Shown: positions 31,732-37,234 of the stretch, in pieces
Numbering within the stretch: the first letter of the stretch is position 1
How the letters are laid out: each line of letters opens with the position of its first letter
Assembly: GCA_030835135.1 (NCBI GenBank)
Contig: JAUQWO010000017.1
Location: forward strand, 1-50,125
Origin: Bacteroidota bacterium
GTDB taxonomy: Bacteria; Bacteroidota; Ignavibacteria; UBA10030; UBA6906
Direction of reading: 5' to 3'
Length of the DNA: 50,125 nt
The notes under the pieces: generated by a model
What the model saw: only the letters and a program-made list of their open reading frames with translations
Told to the model about the DNA's origin: nothing
The model's database searches: none
Program-made: the position numbers and the translations under genes

Positions 31732-32856
31732 TTATTTCGGTTCGTCACCACCCCATGCGATCAGCAACGAGAACCTGATCGTATCCGAGAGCGGATGATT
31801 GTCCGCCGCGGAGATGTAGCTGAAATCGAACCCATAGATGTCGTAGCGGATACCCGCGCCGAACGTGAGGAACTTGCGGGCACCAAACTCCGGATGCTCG
31901 TAGAAATAACCCAGGCGCAGGGCGATGAGCCGCGGGGCACCATACCAGTATTCCGCACCACCGCTTACGATCACCTTCTTCAGGCCGGTCCCGTCGCCCC
32001 ACGCGCTGAACAGCGCTTTGTAGAACGGATCGGATGTCTGGTCCTCGCGGCGGCGGACCAACAGGCGGCTGAAGTCGAGGCCCAGTTGCAGATTGTTGTA
32101 TTCGTCGTTGAGGAGTTTGTACCCGAGACCGACACGCAGGTTCGTCGGGAGCGGGTCCGCCTGGTCGGCGTCAACGTAGGTCACCTTCGGGCCGAGGTTG
32201 GACAGGTTGACCCCGACGCTGAAGGCATTCCCGATGTCGCCGAGCAACGGCACCTCCAGTTTCACCGGGCGGTACATCAAGGCAAGGTCAACGCTGACCG
32301 TCGAGGAGATGCCGTTCCCCTTCTCCGATTCGGTGCCGATAGGAGAGAGGGCGCTATGGATGTAACGGACGTTCACGCCAATGCCCAGGTCCTCCGAGGC
32401 CTTGGTGGCATACCCGACCGCCACGGCGTACTCGAACGACTTGAACTTGTCGATGACCGTCGGACCCGAGGAGTTGGTGACCGCGAATTCACCGAGACTC
32501 AGGTACGTCACGCTCGCGCCGATGGTCCCCCCGATGGCGTCGATGTCCATGCGGTAGTTCAGGTGATCGTAGAAGAGGTCCGGCAGATTGAACTGCGGCA
32601 GCCAGTTGGCATGCGTGATACTGACCTCCTGCCCCTTCAGAAACGCGAGTGCCGCAGGGTTCCAGAAGATCGCGGACGCGTCGTCCACCGTCCCTGTGCC
32701 GGATTCACCCATACCGGAGGCACGCGAATTCGGGGCAATGAGCAGGAAAGGCACCGCCGACTCACCCTGTGCGCGCGCTTCGGAAGCAATGCCGGCCAGC
32801 GCGAATGCCGCAAGGAGCAGTGCGATGATCTGTGATACCCGATTCTGCGTTTTCAT
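31732..32856 (-). CDS. porV: PorV type IX secretion outer-membrane protein
   Basis: A 374-residue FadL-like outer-membrane protein with a signal peptide (about 1-29, cleavage near EARAQ) and the PorV start AVPFLLIAPNSRASGMGESG, followed by DDASAIFWNPAALAFLKGQEVSITHANWLPQ. PorV shuttles cargo from the SprA channel to the PorU attachment complex by binding the sorting domain. Length and motifs match PorV (LptO). AGGAGG lies about 10 nt before the ATG. It is 53 bp downstream of porU, its functional partner. Confidence 0.92.
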   Translation of the reverse strand: MKTQNRVSQIIALLLAAFALAGIASEARAQGESAVPFLLIAPNSRASGMGESGTGTVDDASAIFWNPAALAFLKGQEVSITHANWLPQFNLPDLFYDHLNYRMDIDAIGGTIGASVTYLSLGEFAVTNSSGPTVIDKFKSFEYAVAVGYATKASEDLGIGVNVRYIHSALSPIGTESEKGNGISSTVSVDLALMYRPVKLEVPLLGDIGNAFSVGVNLSNLGPKVTYVDADQADPLPTNLRVGLGYKLLNDEYNNLQLGLDFSRLLVRRREDQTSDPFYKALFSAWGDGTGLKKVIVSGGAEYWYGAPRLIALRLGYFYEHPEFGARKFLTFGAGIRYDIYGFDFSYISAADNHPLSDTIRFSLLIAWGGDEPK

Positions 32857-32909: not shown

Positions 32910-35900
32910 CTAACGCACCACGGTCAGTTTGCCGAGGGCCTCACTGCTGAAGCGGCCATCGGTGGTGCGGACAACAAGTTTGTACAGGTATACTCCATTC
33001 GCGAGCATATCGCCATCGCGGTCGCGGCCATCCCAGGGCACGCGAACCATCGGTTCGCCGGCCGTGATCGTGTGCAGCGACTGGATCAGGCGACCCGCGA
33101 CGGTATAGATCTTCACTTCCACGTCGAGCGGATCGCTCAGGTTCTGACGGAACGTGAATTGCGTTTCGCCCGCGAAGGGGTTCGGATAGTTGAAGACGTC
33201 GGTGATGCTGAGACTGCCGGAACTCGCGACCTCGAAGAACGTTTCTGCGACCGACGAATTGTTCTGTGAATCCCAGGCGCGGATACGAATCGTGTTCTTG
33301 CCGGATGCGAGACCGTTCAGCGGATACTCGACCGTTCCTGCCCGGAAATCATCCAGCGTACTCGTGTAATGCTCCGTCAGGTCCTTGCTCTGGGTACTGC
33401 CGTTGATCCACGCCTCGATGCGATGGCCGATACCGGCCGTCGAGGTATTCACGCCGCTTGAATCCCGCAGATCGACGAGCAGCCTCGGCGCCTCGGTCAC
33501 GACATCTCCCGGACGGAACTCCCGCGAGTTGAGATAGATGTGCATCGACGGTCCGGTGCCATCGTTGGCCGCCGAGGTATCGGTGCCGCCCACGCGCACA
33601 AGGCCCGTGAATCCCGCCCCATCCGCGCCACCGCCGGAGAAGTACGCCACCAGACGTCCGCGACCGGTGGTATCCGCGTACGAAATATCCTTGGGCACCA
33701 TGAACGTCGCACGGAAGCGGCCGGCATGCACGGAGTTCTCGCCCCGGTAGATCGTCCCGCCCGTGGACGTGTACGCCCAATTGCGGCCGGCATAGAAGTT
33801 CACGATCAGCTGTGCCCTGCTCACATCGTTCACGCGGAGTTGCACGATGCCGTTGAACGTGGAGTCGATACGGTTGCCGGCATTGCGGATCGTGCCACCG
33901 ACGGTCACCCGGCTCATCGCCTTCAGGACGATGGGGGTCGTGCGCGGCGCCCCGCCCACGCTATCGACCGGTTCCCCATTGATGCTGTCGATCATCGCAT
34001 ACCCGCGGGGATATGCCAGCTGGGTGGTCGGATCGCCCATGTACAGGTATTTTGCATCGTTCACCTGCTCGCCCCCGCCCGTGACCTTATACAACAGCAA
34101 CGCTGTTGCGGGCCGGTCCACGACCACCCGCCCGTACACATCACGCTTGAACATCCGCTCGTAGGTCCCCTGGTTCAGCTGTGCGTTACTAATGGCGAAC
34201 ACCTTGCGGGAAGCGGAGATCACGCCGATCGCCCCACCATCGGGTTTGTTCAGAAGCAATTCGCTGCCGGTGTAGTTGCGCGGGTCGTCGAACTGCGAGA
34301 AGTTGCAGGTCGCCAGGATGAAGAGTGCAAGCCGGTTCGCGTTCACCATCGGCGGGATCGAGGTGTTGACCTCAAAGATCATCTCGTGGGCCCACACCTT
34401 CGGGTTCCCGTGGCCGGAGTAGTTCAGGATCAGCACCCCCTGGTTCACCTGATCGATGATATCCTGGGCCGCACCCGGTTTCCGCCGGCCCTGCGCCGTG
34501 AAGACGGTCGGGTATTCCGCAATGTAGATCTTCTTCTTTTCAATTTCGTCCGGCGTGAACGCGGCACTGCTCAGCGTCTCGGCGTCGTCACTGTGCATCG
34601 TACCGTCTTCGGTTTCGCTCGTCCAGGAATCATCGCCGACGTACAGGATGCGCATCTTCCAGCTGTCGTCCGCGCTCTCCGCGCGGTACCGGATGGTCTT
34701 GTCCACGACAATGTTCGCTTCGCGCACCGTGCGCGCCGAGATGCGCCCGAGCACGAGCGACGGCAGGCCGTTCTGGGTGAACCGCGCGAAAAAATCATCG
34801 GTCGCATAACTGAAGATCTCGTTGCGCGATTCCGCGGACTGCCATGTAGGGACGTAACTGGACCTCGTCCCGAGGATGTTCTTGTAATCGTACGACGCGC
34901 CACCCAGGAACAACACAAACGTCGGCTTCAGCGTCCAACTCTCGTAGGCGTACTTGAGATAGTCCCGGATCGCCGAGATGTCCGGCAAGCCCCCGCCGAA
35001 TTCATTATAGATGTTCGCCACATCCACGACAATGGACTTCAAGCCGCCATTCGCGGGTTGTTCGCGGAAGGTCTTGATGCGGTCGGCGACACTCTTGAAC
35101 TCTTCACTCGTCAGGATGATGAAATCCGCCCCTCCGGCATACCCGCGGAGGTCCTGATTGGCGACCTTCTGCGCGCCGGCGATCGTCTTCCACGCACCGA
35201 CCGATGTCGCCCAGTACTCCGTGACCTCCCCGGTGCGAAGCGTATCGCGGAAGGTGTATGAACCGGCCACGCCGGAGATCAGGCGGACGTTCGCCGGGTC
35301 CGTTACATTGAACACCATCGGCTTGGCGGTGAACTGCTGGAGCAGGTACTCCGCGATACCCGTCGCATCGGGCGAGCGGAAGTGCAGCGCATTATTGACG
35401 CCCCAGAGCATGCGCGGGTACAGGATCTCCACCCAGTCGATCCAGGCCTCCGATGCCGCACTCGACGACTGGAAGCTCACGCTGAACTGGCTCGAGGTCC
35501 CGGACAGCGACGACGAAGCCGATGCTTCGAACGTGGAGGCCGTCGCATATTGGTAGCTTCCCTCGGATGAGGACGGGAGCGCGTGCGTCCCGAGCACCGT
35601 GGTTCCCTCCCGCACGGTGAACCGCGGGAACGTCTCATCGTGTGCAACGAGAGTGTATCGATACGTGATGACATCATTGGCCACAAGGCCAGGCAACGGA
35701 CTGACGTGAGTGAACGAGCCGGAGGGGCCGCTGATCGATTGTCCGTACCAGGCCTTGCCCGAGCTGAGCTTGTTCACCTTCTCTTCTTCGATCGCCACCA
35801 TGTCGGTGAACTTCTCCACGACCACCGACGGGGTCATGGCCGACGACGGCTGGTCCGCCATGCGCTTCCCGCGTGCCCCTCCGAAGGTCAACCAGTAGTA

Positions 35901-36983
35901 GTTCGTCTCGGTGTAGTGGTTGATGTAGTGGTCCCACGTCCGGCGCGATGGCGCGTAGGTCCACCCGCGCGGTGAACGGCCATAGAAGAGGATGTAGTCG
36001 GACGAACCCAGTTGGCCGTCGGCCTCCCCTTCCACATAGATGGCATTCTCCACGAGGTCGACCGGGCGCGCGTCCCCGGGATTCTCGGAGAGTTCCTTGC
36101 CGCCATTGCCATAGATGCGGATGGTGCGCGGATCGATCGATGCGACGGCGATACCCATCGCGGTGAGCGACGCTGCATCGATCTTGTAGATCCCCTCTTC
36201 CGTCACCGCGAGACGGTACCAATCCCCGGAGGCGAGCACGCTGGAAGCAAGGGCGGTCTTCGACAGCGGCCGTGTGGAGCGTGGCATCGATGAGAGCAGG
36301 GACGCATTGACAACGCCGGGCCCGAGCAACCGCACATCAGCATCGTCGATGGCCTGCGGGGTGCCGGACGCGAATGTGATCTCCACGACGATCCGGGAAT
36401 ACAGCCGCGCGGTCCTGGCGACGGGATCATATTGTATCGGGGCAAGGGTCACCGGCCCGACAAGGAGGCTCCGCACGGGAGCCGGCGCACCGACCGTGGC
36501 GATGGTTGCCGGAGCGAAACCCGGACGCGCATACGCATCGCGGTTCTCGGCATACACCGAGCCGTCAGGCATGCCATCGCGATAGCGGATCTGCGGAACG
36601 GGGAGGAGATCGATCCCCTTCCGGTCCTCATAGTCAGCGGCTAGGACGCGCACCGATGCAGCGCCCGAGGTCGGGAACGCGATGCCGGTGACGCGCGTAC
36701 GAAGATCGGGAGTGCCGTATTCTTCCGGGGCATACGCGCCTTTGCCTTCTCCGATGTTGAACCGGACACAGGTCCGGCCATCGACGATGACGGTGTCGGT
36801 GCTGGTGTACCGTGGAATGTATTCGAGCACGAGCGCGGACGGGGTGGAACTCAGCACACGAAGATCCGGCTTGTGCGCACCGGGATGCGCGGAAGCCGTT
36901 GCAGCCGAGCCGGCAGGTGCCGCCGGGAGATCCCCCGGCCAGAAGAGCACCGCGACAAGGGCAACCATCGCGACCCGGACCAT
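32910..36983 (-). CDS. porU: PorU type IX secretion C-terminal signal peptidase
   Basis: This C25-family (gingipain-like) peptidase of about 1357 residues removes the T9SS sorting domain from cargo and attaches it to the surface. After a signal peptide come a propeptide-like region and the C25 domain, with catalytic His858 in NYSGHGNPK and Cys893 in FILATCNFSQFDDP. The rest comprises Ig-like segments and a C-terminal sorting-domain-like module (NYPNPFAGETQFTF onward, ending KLTVVR). ATG 36983 gives a clean signal peptide (MVRVAMVALVAVLFW); GTG 37004, 11 nt after GGAGG, is a real alternative. The frame is open to 37082, but that stretch covers a terminator hairpin and is unlikely to be translated. 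It leads the porU-porV operon. Confidence 0.92.
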   Translation of the reverse strand: MVRVAMVALVAVLFWPGDLPAAPAGSAATASAHPGAHKPDLRVLSSTPSALVLEYIPRYTSTDTVIVDGRTCVRFNIGEGKGAYAPEEYGTPDLRTRVTGIAFPTSGAASVRVLAADYEDRKGIDLLPVPQIRYRDGMPDGSVYAENRDAYARPGFAPATIATVGAPAPVRSLLVGPVTLAPIQYDPVARTARLYSRIVVEITFASGTPQAIDDADVRLLGPGVVNASLLSSMPRSTRPLSKTALASSVLASGDWYRLAVTEEGIYKIDAASLTAMGIAVASIDPRTIRIYGNGGKELSENPGDARPVDLVENAIYVEGEADGQLGSSDYILFYGRSPRGWTYAPSRRTWDHYINHYTETNYYWLTFGGARGKRMADQPSSAMTPSVVVEKFTDMVAIEEEKVNKLSSGKAWYGQSISGPSGSFTHVSPLPGLVANDVITYRYTLVAHDETFPRFTVREGTTVLGTHALPSSSEGSYQYATASTFEASASSSLSGTSSQFSVSFQSSSAASEAWIDWVEILYPRMLWGVNNALHFRSPDATGIAEYLLQQFTAKPMVFNVTDPANVRLISGVAGSYTFRDTLRTGEVTEYWATSVGAWKTIAGAQKVANQDLRGYAGGADFIILTSEEFKSVADRIKTFREQPANGGLKSIVVDVANIYNEFGGGLPDISAIRDYLKYAYESWTLKPTFVLFLGGASYDYKNILGTRSSYVPTWQSAESRNEIFSYATDDFFARFTQNGLPSLVLGRISARTVREANIVVDKTIRYRAESADDSWKMRILYVGDDSWTSETEDGTMHSDDAETLSSAAFTPDEIEKKKIYIAEYPTVFTAQGRRKPGAAQDIIDQVNQGVLILNYSGHGNPKVWAHEMIFEVNTSIPPMVNANRLALFILATCNFSQFDDPRNYTGSELLLNKPDGGAIGVISASRKVFAISNAQLNQGTYERMFKRDVYGRVVVDRPATALLLYKVTGGGEQVNDAKYLYMGDPTTQLAYPRGYAMIDSINGEPVDSVGGAPRTTPIVLKAMSRVTVGGTIRNAGNRIDSTFNGIVQLRVNDVSRAQLIVNFYAGRNWAYTSTGGTIYRGENSVHAGRFRATFMVPKDISYADTTGRGRLVAYFSGGGADGAGFTGLVRVGGTDTSAANDGTGPSMHIYLNSREFRPGDVVTEAPRLLVDLRDSSGVNTSTAGIGHRIEAWINGSTQSKDLTEHYTSTLDDFRAGTVEYPLNGLASGKNTIRIRAWDSQNNSSVAETFFEVASSGSLSITDVFNYPNPFAGETQFTFRQNLSDPLDVEVKIYTVAGRLIQSLHTITAGEPMVRVPWDGRDRDGDMLANGVYLYKLVVRTTDGRFSSEALGKLTVVR

Positions 36984-37023
36984 GTGGAATCTGACTGGAC
37001 GCACGAAAGAGATCGCCTCCCGA

Positions 37024-37065
37024 TAAATAAAAAACCGAACGTTATCTAACATCCATAACATTCGG
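37024..37065 (-). terminator. Intrinsic terminator (possible attenuator) just upstream of porU
   Basis: On the minus strand an 11-bp stem (37055-37065 with 37035-37045, one mismatch, 9-base loop) is followed at once by TTTTTTATTT. It lies about 40 bases before the porU start and after the promoter at 37206-37234, so it would stop transcripts before porU unless overridden. Confidence 0.75.
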
Positions 37066-37199
37066 CGGCGGACATGGTTCATGGAGCCACCAGCGTGTTA
37101 TAGAATGTTCGTTAAAGGAACTCACCTGCCTGCAACCAGCACAAACCTTTAACCGAACACTTCTATAGGCTGAACTCCAGAATTATCGATGTCTGAATC
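37024..37199 (-). ncRNA. Rod-shaped structured RNA: small RNA or porU leader
   Basis: The predicted transcript from the 37206-37234 promoter to the terminator is about 170 nt and folds into one long interrupted hairpin. Paired segments are 37071-37075/37189-37193, 37082-37086/37175-37179, 37091-37094/37169-37172, 37099-37105/37161-37167, 37106-37111/37154-37159 and 37112-37118/37146-37152. That is 34 pairs with a 27-base apical loop and two single-base bulges. The right arm of the rod (GAATGTT at 37103-37109 on the plus strand) can instead pair with 37057-37063 inside the terminator stem, a layout typical of attenuators. Length and rod shape also recall 6S-type RNA, but no family consensus was recognised. 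No protein-coding content is seen here. Confidence 0.5.
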
Positions 37200-37205
37200 T
37201 GTGGC

Positions 37206-37234
37206 AATATAGCCAATGCGACCCTCTTTGTCAA
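37206..37234 (-). promoter_or_regulatory. Strong sigma70-type promoter upstream of porU and the structured RNA
   Basis: Minus-strand TTGACA (37229-37234) and TATATT (37206-37211) are separated by 17 bases: a perfect -35 and a near-perfect -10. The expected start is near 37199, giving about 215 nt before porU. Confidence 0.72.

Follow-up and report, generated by a model that had tools for sequence, protein, structure and literature searches.

In the stretch of Bacteroidota DNA analysed here (50,125 nucleotides, the window hereafter), the leader RNA that precedes porU, the gene of the type IX secretion (T9SS) sortase, belongs to a new RNA family and most likely attenuates the transcription of porU(-porV) and also that of a PorV-family gene. 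Judging from sequence comparison, we put the probability that it is a cis-acting four-segment transcription attenuator at about 0.75. Comparison across genomes supports the conservation of its location, promoter, rod, terminator and compensatory changes, as well as a coevolution, in three families, between one strand of the rod (B) and an arm of the terminator. We infer that both RNA states occur in cells, that the off state is the default, and that something occupies the other strand of the rod (A).

On the minus strand of the window, the interval between glgA and porU contains, in series, a promoter, an RNA that folds into a rod and an intrinsic terminator, which is the layout of a four-segment attenuator ahead of a structural gene. 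The features are as follows.

37293 (plus strand): start of glgA, the divergent neighbour
37206..37234 (minus strand): sigma-70-type promoter, TTGACA-17-TATATT, 11 of 12 consensus letters
37175..37178 (minus strand): conserved 5' signature GGAG, in the 5' strand of the rod at its base
37164..37166 (minus strand): AUA, within a conserved UAU(A/C/U) motif
37146..37159 (minus strand): strand A, segment 1, UGUUCGGUUAAAGG; its GNUAARGGUU core is nearly invariant class-wide
37106..37118 (minus strand): strand B, segment 2, CCUUUAACGAACA; partner of strand A, with the terminator arm as alternative partner
37083..37094 (minus strand): closing stem of the rod, 3' strand, GCUGGUGGCUCC
37046..37065 (minus strand): segment 3, CCGAAUGUUAUGGAUGUUAG, comprising the 5' arm and the loop of the terminator; in part a mimic of strand A
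37024..37045 (minus strand): segment 4, the 3' arm of the terminator, AUAACGUUCGG, with the U-tract
32910..37004 (minus strand): porU, type IX secretion sortase (NF033707, E 6e-290; Peptidase_C25, E 2e-83)
31732..32856 (minus strand): porV, for the outer-membrane shuttle of the T9SS, oriented like porU and downstream of it (NF033710, 258.9 bits for a cut-off of 250; PF19572)

The promoter that the initial annotation had called near-consensus is the sole match of this strength near porU (about 1.3 matches of at least 9 of 12 letters are expected per 4 kb), and would start transcription near 37199 on the minus strand. The RNA from 37199 to 37024 folds with -56.8 kcal/mol, whereas dinucleotide-shuffled sequences give -42.6 +/- 4.1 (z -3.46; 0/200 as good), and its minimum-energy structure has 48 pairs in the rod and 12 in the terminator, which makes the 34 rod pairs counted initially a fair, conservative figure. 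The intrinsic terminator proposed at 37065..37024 is also there (CCGAAUGUUAU..AUAACGUUCGG-UUUUUU), and is overlooked by a simple scanner because its loop is 9 nt long. The whole leader element is single-copy in the window's genome.

The start of porU is likely the GTG at 37004-37002, preceded by GGGAGG, with ATG 36982 as an alternative. Upstream, the porU frame stays open through the terminator to ATG 37082, and an automatic start call could therefore wrongly place the start within the leader. The leader is probably non-coding, because the porU starts of relatives follow the terminator and because GTG 37004 stands behind GGGAGG in the window.

A DNA search of 60 genomes found the element in 12, every one of them from the window's own family (f1), with no match in genomes from other families. 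The model built from those matches (R1) extended it to 37 of 98 genomes of the order. A second, covariance model (R2) was made from families f3, f5 and f6 only and, despite containing no f1 sequence, recovers the window's RNA with an E-value of 1.3e-7. Of 391 genomes from the class, it finds the element in 89, usually as one copy per genome; about 75 of these genomes belong to the order itself and 14 to other orders. In a phylum-wide sample the element was not detected beyond the window's class. Direct searches upstream of porU in genomes that had looked like gaps gave clear copies in three genomes of the order (G057, G077, G065), weak ones in two more (G043, G055) and none in G035; nothing similar was found there in G112, G130 and G121. 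Nearly all genomes of the order carry one such element ahead of porU, and it recurs in several families of the class beyond the order. Two of the nearest named public records, which are metagenome-assembled genomes (MAGs) labelled Bacteroidetes or Ignavibacteriae bacterium, have the RNA as well (JACRFA010000076.1 and JADLEA010000142.1). In one genome of family f14 (G105, L155), all that is left upstream of porU is GGAG-CUAUAG-UUUGUUA, with rod and terminator absent. A MAG labelled Armatimonadetes, a label that may be wrong, encodes a PorU relative with 33% identity (L134, JADZEY010000024.1), and neither model finds the leader RNA in it.

At the loci that we inspected, porU follows the element, the exceptions being second copies ahead of a PorV/PorQ-family gene and a few weak chance matches, and the porU start usually lies 0-30 nt past the U-tract. 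Weak model matches (L060, L140, L143-L147) were set aside as bare terminators or unrelated genes. A promoter of the form TTGAC-(17-20)-TAnnnT is present upstream in 91 of 102 homologous loci, for an expectation of 0.006 per locus after shuffling.

The alignment of the regions upstream of porU, which the initial annotation had proposed as a check, revealed both conservation and compensatory changes. In 20 sequences drawn from three families, pairs are kept in 93.7% of cells and 30 cells are changed on both sides; the covariation score is 0.268, compared with 0.166 in shuffled alignments (0/500) and at most 0.083 in slid ones, and the signal is concentrated largely in the terminator. The conserved parts are strands A (UGUUCGGUUAAAGG) and B (CCUUUAACGAACA) and the terminator; the apical loop has neither a set length nor a set sequence. 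In the 5' strand of the A:B helix, G, U and A occur at fixed places in 99/99 aligned sequences, and GGUU, at the top of the rod, in 90-98%. Strand A is thus conserved above strand B, which accommodates to it (in f6, GAUAAAGG:CCUUUAUC and GGUAAAGG:CCUUUACU versus GUUAAAGG:CCUUUAAC), and pairing by itself does not account for this difference. The rod carries its own terminal U-run and resembles a terminator in f5, part of f1, f20 and f24, and at L093 (f20) and L091 (f24) no second terminator follows the rod.

Shorter second copies of the element, with the core UUGUUAGAG/CUCUAACAA, precede a PorV/PorQ-family gene in f5 and f6 genomes (L095, L096, L097, L136-L139, L141, L142). The gene behind them scores above the cut-off of NF033709 and is closest to PorV2. 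A permissive search of 30 genomes yielded no recurring target besides porU and this PorV-family gene.

In most families, a copy of strand A, complementary to strand B, lies in the 5' arm and loop of the terminator. This copy reads AUGUUAAAGGU in f2, CGUUAAAGG or CGUGAAGGUGU in f5, GUCAGGGUU in f3 and GGCUUGU, opposite ACAAGCC, in f6; in the PorV-family copies the strand A sequence GUUAGAG recurs in the terminator loop. Strand B pairs better with its own arm than with arms swapped within the family in f3 (-10.6 versus -8.2 kcal/mol, p 0.0008), f5 (-12.7 versus -10.8, p 0.0002) and f6 (-10.4 versus -8.1, p 0.0002), and across all families 0/20,000 stratified permutations gave as good a fit, in tests from which relatedness is not fully removed. 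When each genus is represented by a single sequence, the median p is 0.003, 0.027 and 0.001 for f3, f5 and f6, respectively, against 0.07, 0.50 and 0.18 in the reversed-arm control. Native pairing of B with the arm is also strong in f2 and f12, and in the PorV-family copies, but in the latter it comes with no added within-family coevolution (samples are small). The families f9 and f17 show, as groups, no sign of a preference for the own arm. The initial annotation had noted that seven bases of the rod (37103-37109) can also pair with the terminator arm (37057-37063) and had concluded that rod and antiterminator exclude each other. The alternative pairing does exist, and the conclusion is right in kind, as the coevolution in f3, f5 and f6 indicates, but it is weak in the window's own family, where B fits its own arm no better than a relative's arm (p 0.44), although the duplex reaches -15.2 kcal/mol in the congener G001 and -6.9 in the window. 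A mutually exclusive pairing of segments 2 and 3, one that would disrupt the terminator, is therefore supported by coevolution in f3, f5 and f6, and not in f1, f9 and f17 as groups.

Folding predictions give rod plus terminator as the default. When A is masked and the transcript is truncated before segment 4 (D), at least five pairs between B and the arm are predicted in 16/16 sequences of f5, 22/26 of f6 and 5/5 of f2. In the full-length RNA of the window, masking A is predicted to reduce the terminator from 11 to 0.5 pairs, with pairs between B and the terminator arm in its place. Masking A nevertheless leaves most terminators favoured in the full-length RNA, and the switch would accordingly need to operate kinetically.

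These observations can be assembled into the following model. Transcription of the leader would start at the conserved promoter, and strand A (GNUAARGGUU) would pair with strand B into the rod. With B sequestered, the terminator C:D would form and stop transcription just ahead of the porU start codon, the default thus being off. If A were occupied before RNA polymerase has reached D, B would instead pair with the A-like sequence in the 5' arm or loop of the terminator, and this antiterminator would block the terminator and let porU be transcribed. Of the two readings that the initial annotation had offered for this region, premature termination is thus the one favoured by the conserved promoter, rod and terminator before porU, the covarying pairs and the coevolution of B with the arm in f3, f5 and f6.

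The other reading, a free RNA, takes two forms. That the leader belongs to the 6S RNA family is exceedingly improbable: its rod shape and size do recall 6S RNA, but the covariance models of 6S (RF00013) and 6S-Flavo have no match between 36900 and 37300 up to E 10, the element keeps a fixed place before porU, and the genome has a separate 6S-like locus (G000:C22:60374-60616, L148), 81% identical to the RF00013-like RNA of G020, which led us to reject the leader as the genome's 6S gene, unless the genome had two such RNAs. Eight homologous loci likewise have no match in Rfam up to E 1, and no riboswitch, T-box or ribosomal-protein leader family of Rfam is matched either, the best hits of the window being microRNA models far below their cut-offs. 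Elsewhere in the order, 6S-like RNA reaches RF00013 scores of up to 55.7 bits (L017-L022); most of it lies under the Rfam gathering score, and Rfam would miss it in most of these genomes. More generally, the main product of the leader could be a small RNA of about 120-200 nt, stable and terminated, that acts in trans, with porU expressed by constitutive read-through. A strong promoter and terminator, a long rod, a possible seed in the nearly invariant 5' strand and the existence of second copies would all suit such an RNA, but we think it improbable, given that the place directly before porU or the PorV-family gene is kept across very diverged genomes and that a free RNA has no need of coevolution between B and the terminator arm. 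The terminated RNA of about 170 nt is likely a by-product. It is less probable still that rod and terminator are tandem terminators that only shield porU from neighbouring genes or hold its expression low and constant. The terminator-like rods of f5, part of f1, f20 and f24 fit this idea, which leaves the coevolution of A, B and arm unexplained; moreover, these terminators cannot insulate porU because the conserved promoter upstream reads into them.

Within the attenuator reading, the nature of the occupant of A can be approached through the 5' strand. A small molecule or an RNA-binding protein, perhaps reporting the state of the T9SS or of the envelope, might recognise GGAG-UAUHG-GNUAAAGGUU and shift A:B to B:arm, or else stabilise A:B. 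We consider this form somewhat less likely than not: the sequence of the 5' strand is conserved beyond the needs of pairing, including GGUU at the rod top, and the one other recurring target found likewise belongs to the T9SS type, but the leader lacks a conserved aptamer core of any elaboration, its apical loop is free to vary, and a riboswitch match is absent from Rfam. To our knowledge, there is no RNA-binding protein for porU leaders. It is rather unlikely that a ribosome plays this part, by binding GGAG and starting at the non-canonical codon AU(A/C/U) about 9-17 nt before the GNUAAAGG core, covering A and freeing B. AUH is found at this place in 86/90 porU loci (AUG in 1) against 36/90 in a control stretch, the spacing from the GG-box to AUH is mostly 5-8 nt, and in several families the frame soon hits a stop codon (in frame 0, early stops occur in f6, f2, f12 and f9 and not in f1, f3 and f5). 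Across families, however, no frame or peptide is conserved, a clear GGAG-AUH pair is absent in about half of f3 and in several PorV-family copies, and Shine-Dalgarno (SD) motifs precede 7/28 long ORFs of the window against 8.5 in the control. This lack of enrichment is as described for Bacteroidetes (PMC6847099). GGAG-AUH resembles a ribosome-binding site whose start codon is weak, and a protein or another RNA is an equally likely occupant. The fullest version of the ribosome form, in which a ribosome poised at the conserved AUA/AUC/AUU behind GGAG covers A and permits transcription of porU and of the PorV-family gene in a class-wide T9SS regulon, seems to us a little more doubtful again; if it were true, the leader would read the state of translation initiation directly. 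A leader peptide of the trp type was rejected: NUG starts are absent or scattered, few NUG ORFs have an SD motif, and AUH ORFs are not conserved in frame. Strand B also resembles the rrn boxA (CUCUUUAACA), a reading that we discarded as conservation is lower in B than in A (f6 has CCUUUAUC and CCUUUUUC).

Four-segment transcription attenuators are known from the trp and his type. The porU leader shares with them the competition between pairings 1:2, 2:3 and 3:4, a segment 3 that mimics segment 1 and an intrinsic terminator just before the gene, whereas it has no conserved leader peptide or codon run, its downstream gene is a secretion gene and its default seems to be termination through formation of the rod. 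A protein-dependent attenuator is found at rplJL of Bacillus subtilis, where L10(L12)4 acts (PMC4538822); there too, a terminator and an antiterminator compete within an RNA leader of the gene, and the porU leader differs from it in sequence and genes. Like the initial annotation, which knew of no described attenuator for T9SS genes, we found neither a porU leader RNA nor a T9SS attenuator in the literature, and the leader represents an RNA family absent from Rfam. If the switch is true, its nearly invariant 5' strand points to a factor that senses something relevant to secretion. Control of T9SS genes, porU included, has been described for PorXY-SigP (PMC7712824) and for an ECF-type promoter at porU of Flavobacterium psychrophilum (PMC9723704). 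These systems act at promoters, whereas the porU leader has a sigma-70-like promoter and carries its proposed control element in the RNA. A conserved RNA switch before the sortase gene, with a copy before a PorV-family gene, would if true be a new layer of T9SS regulation.
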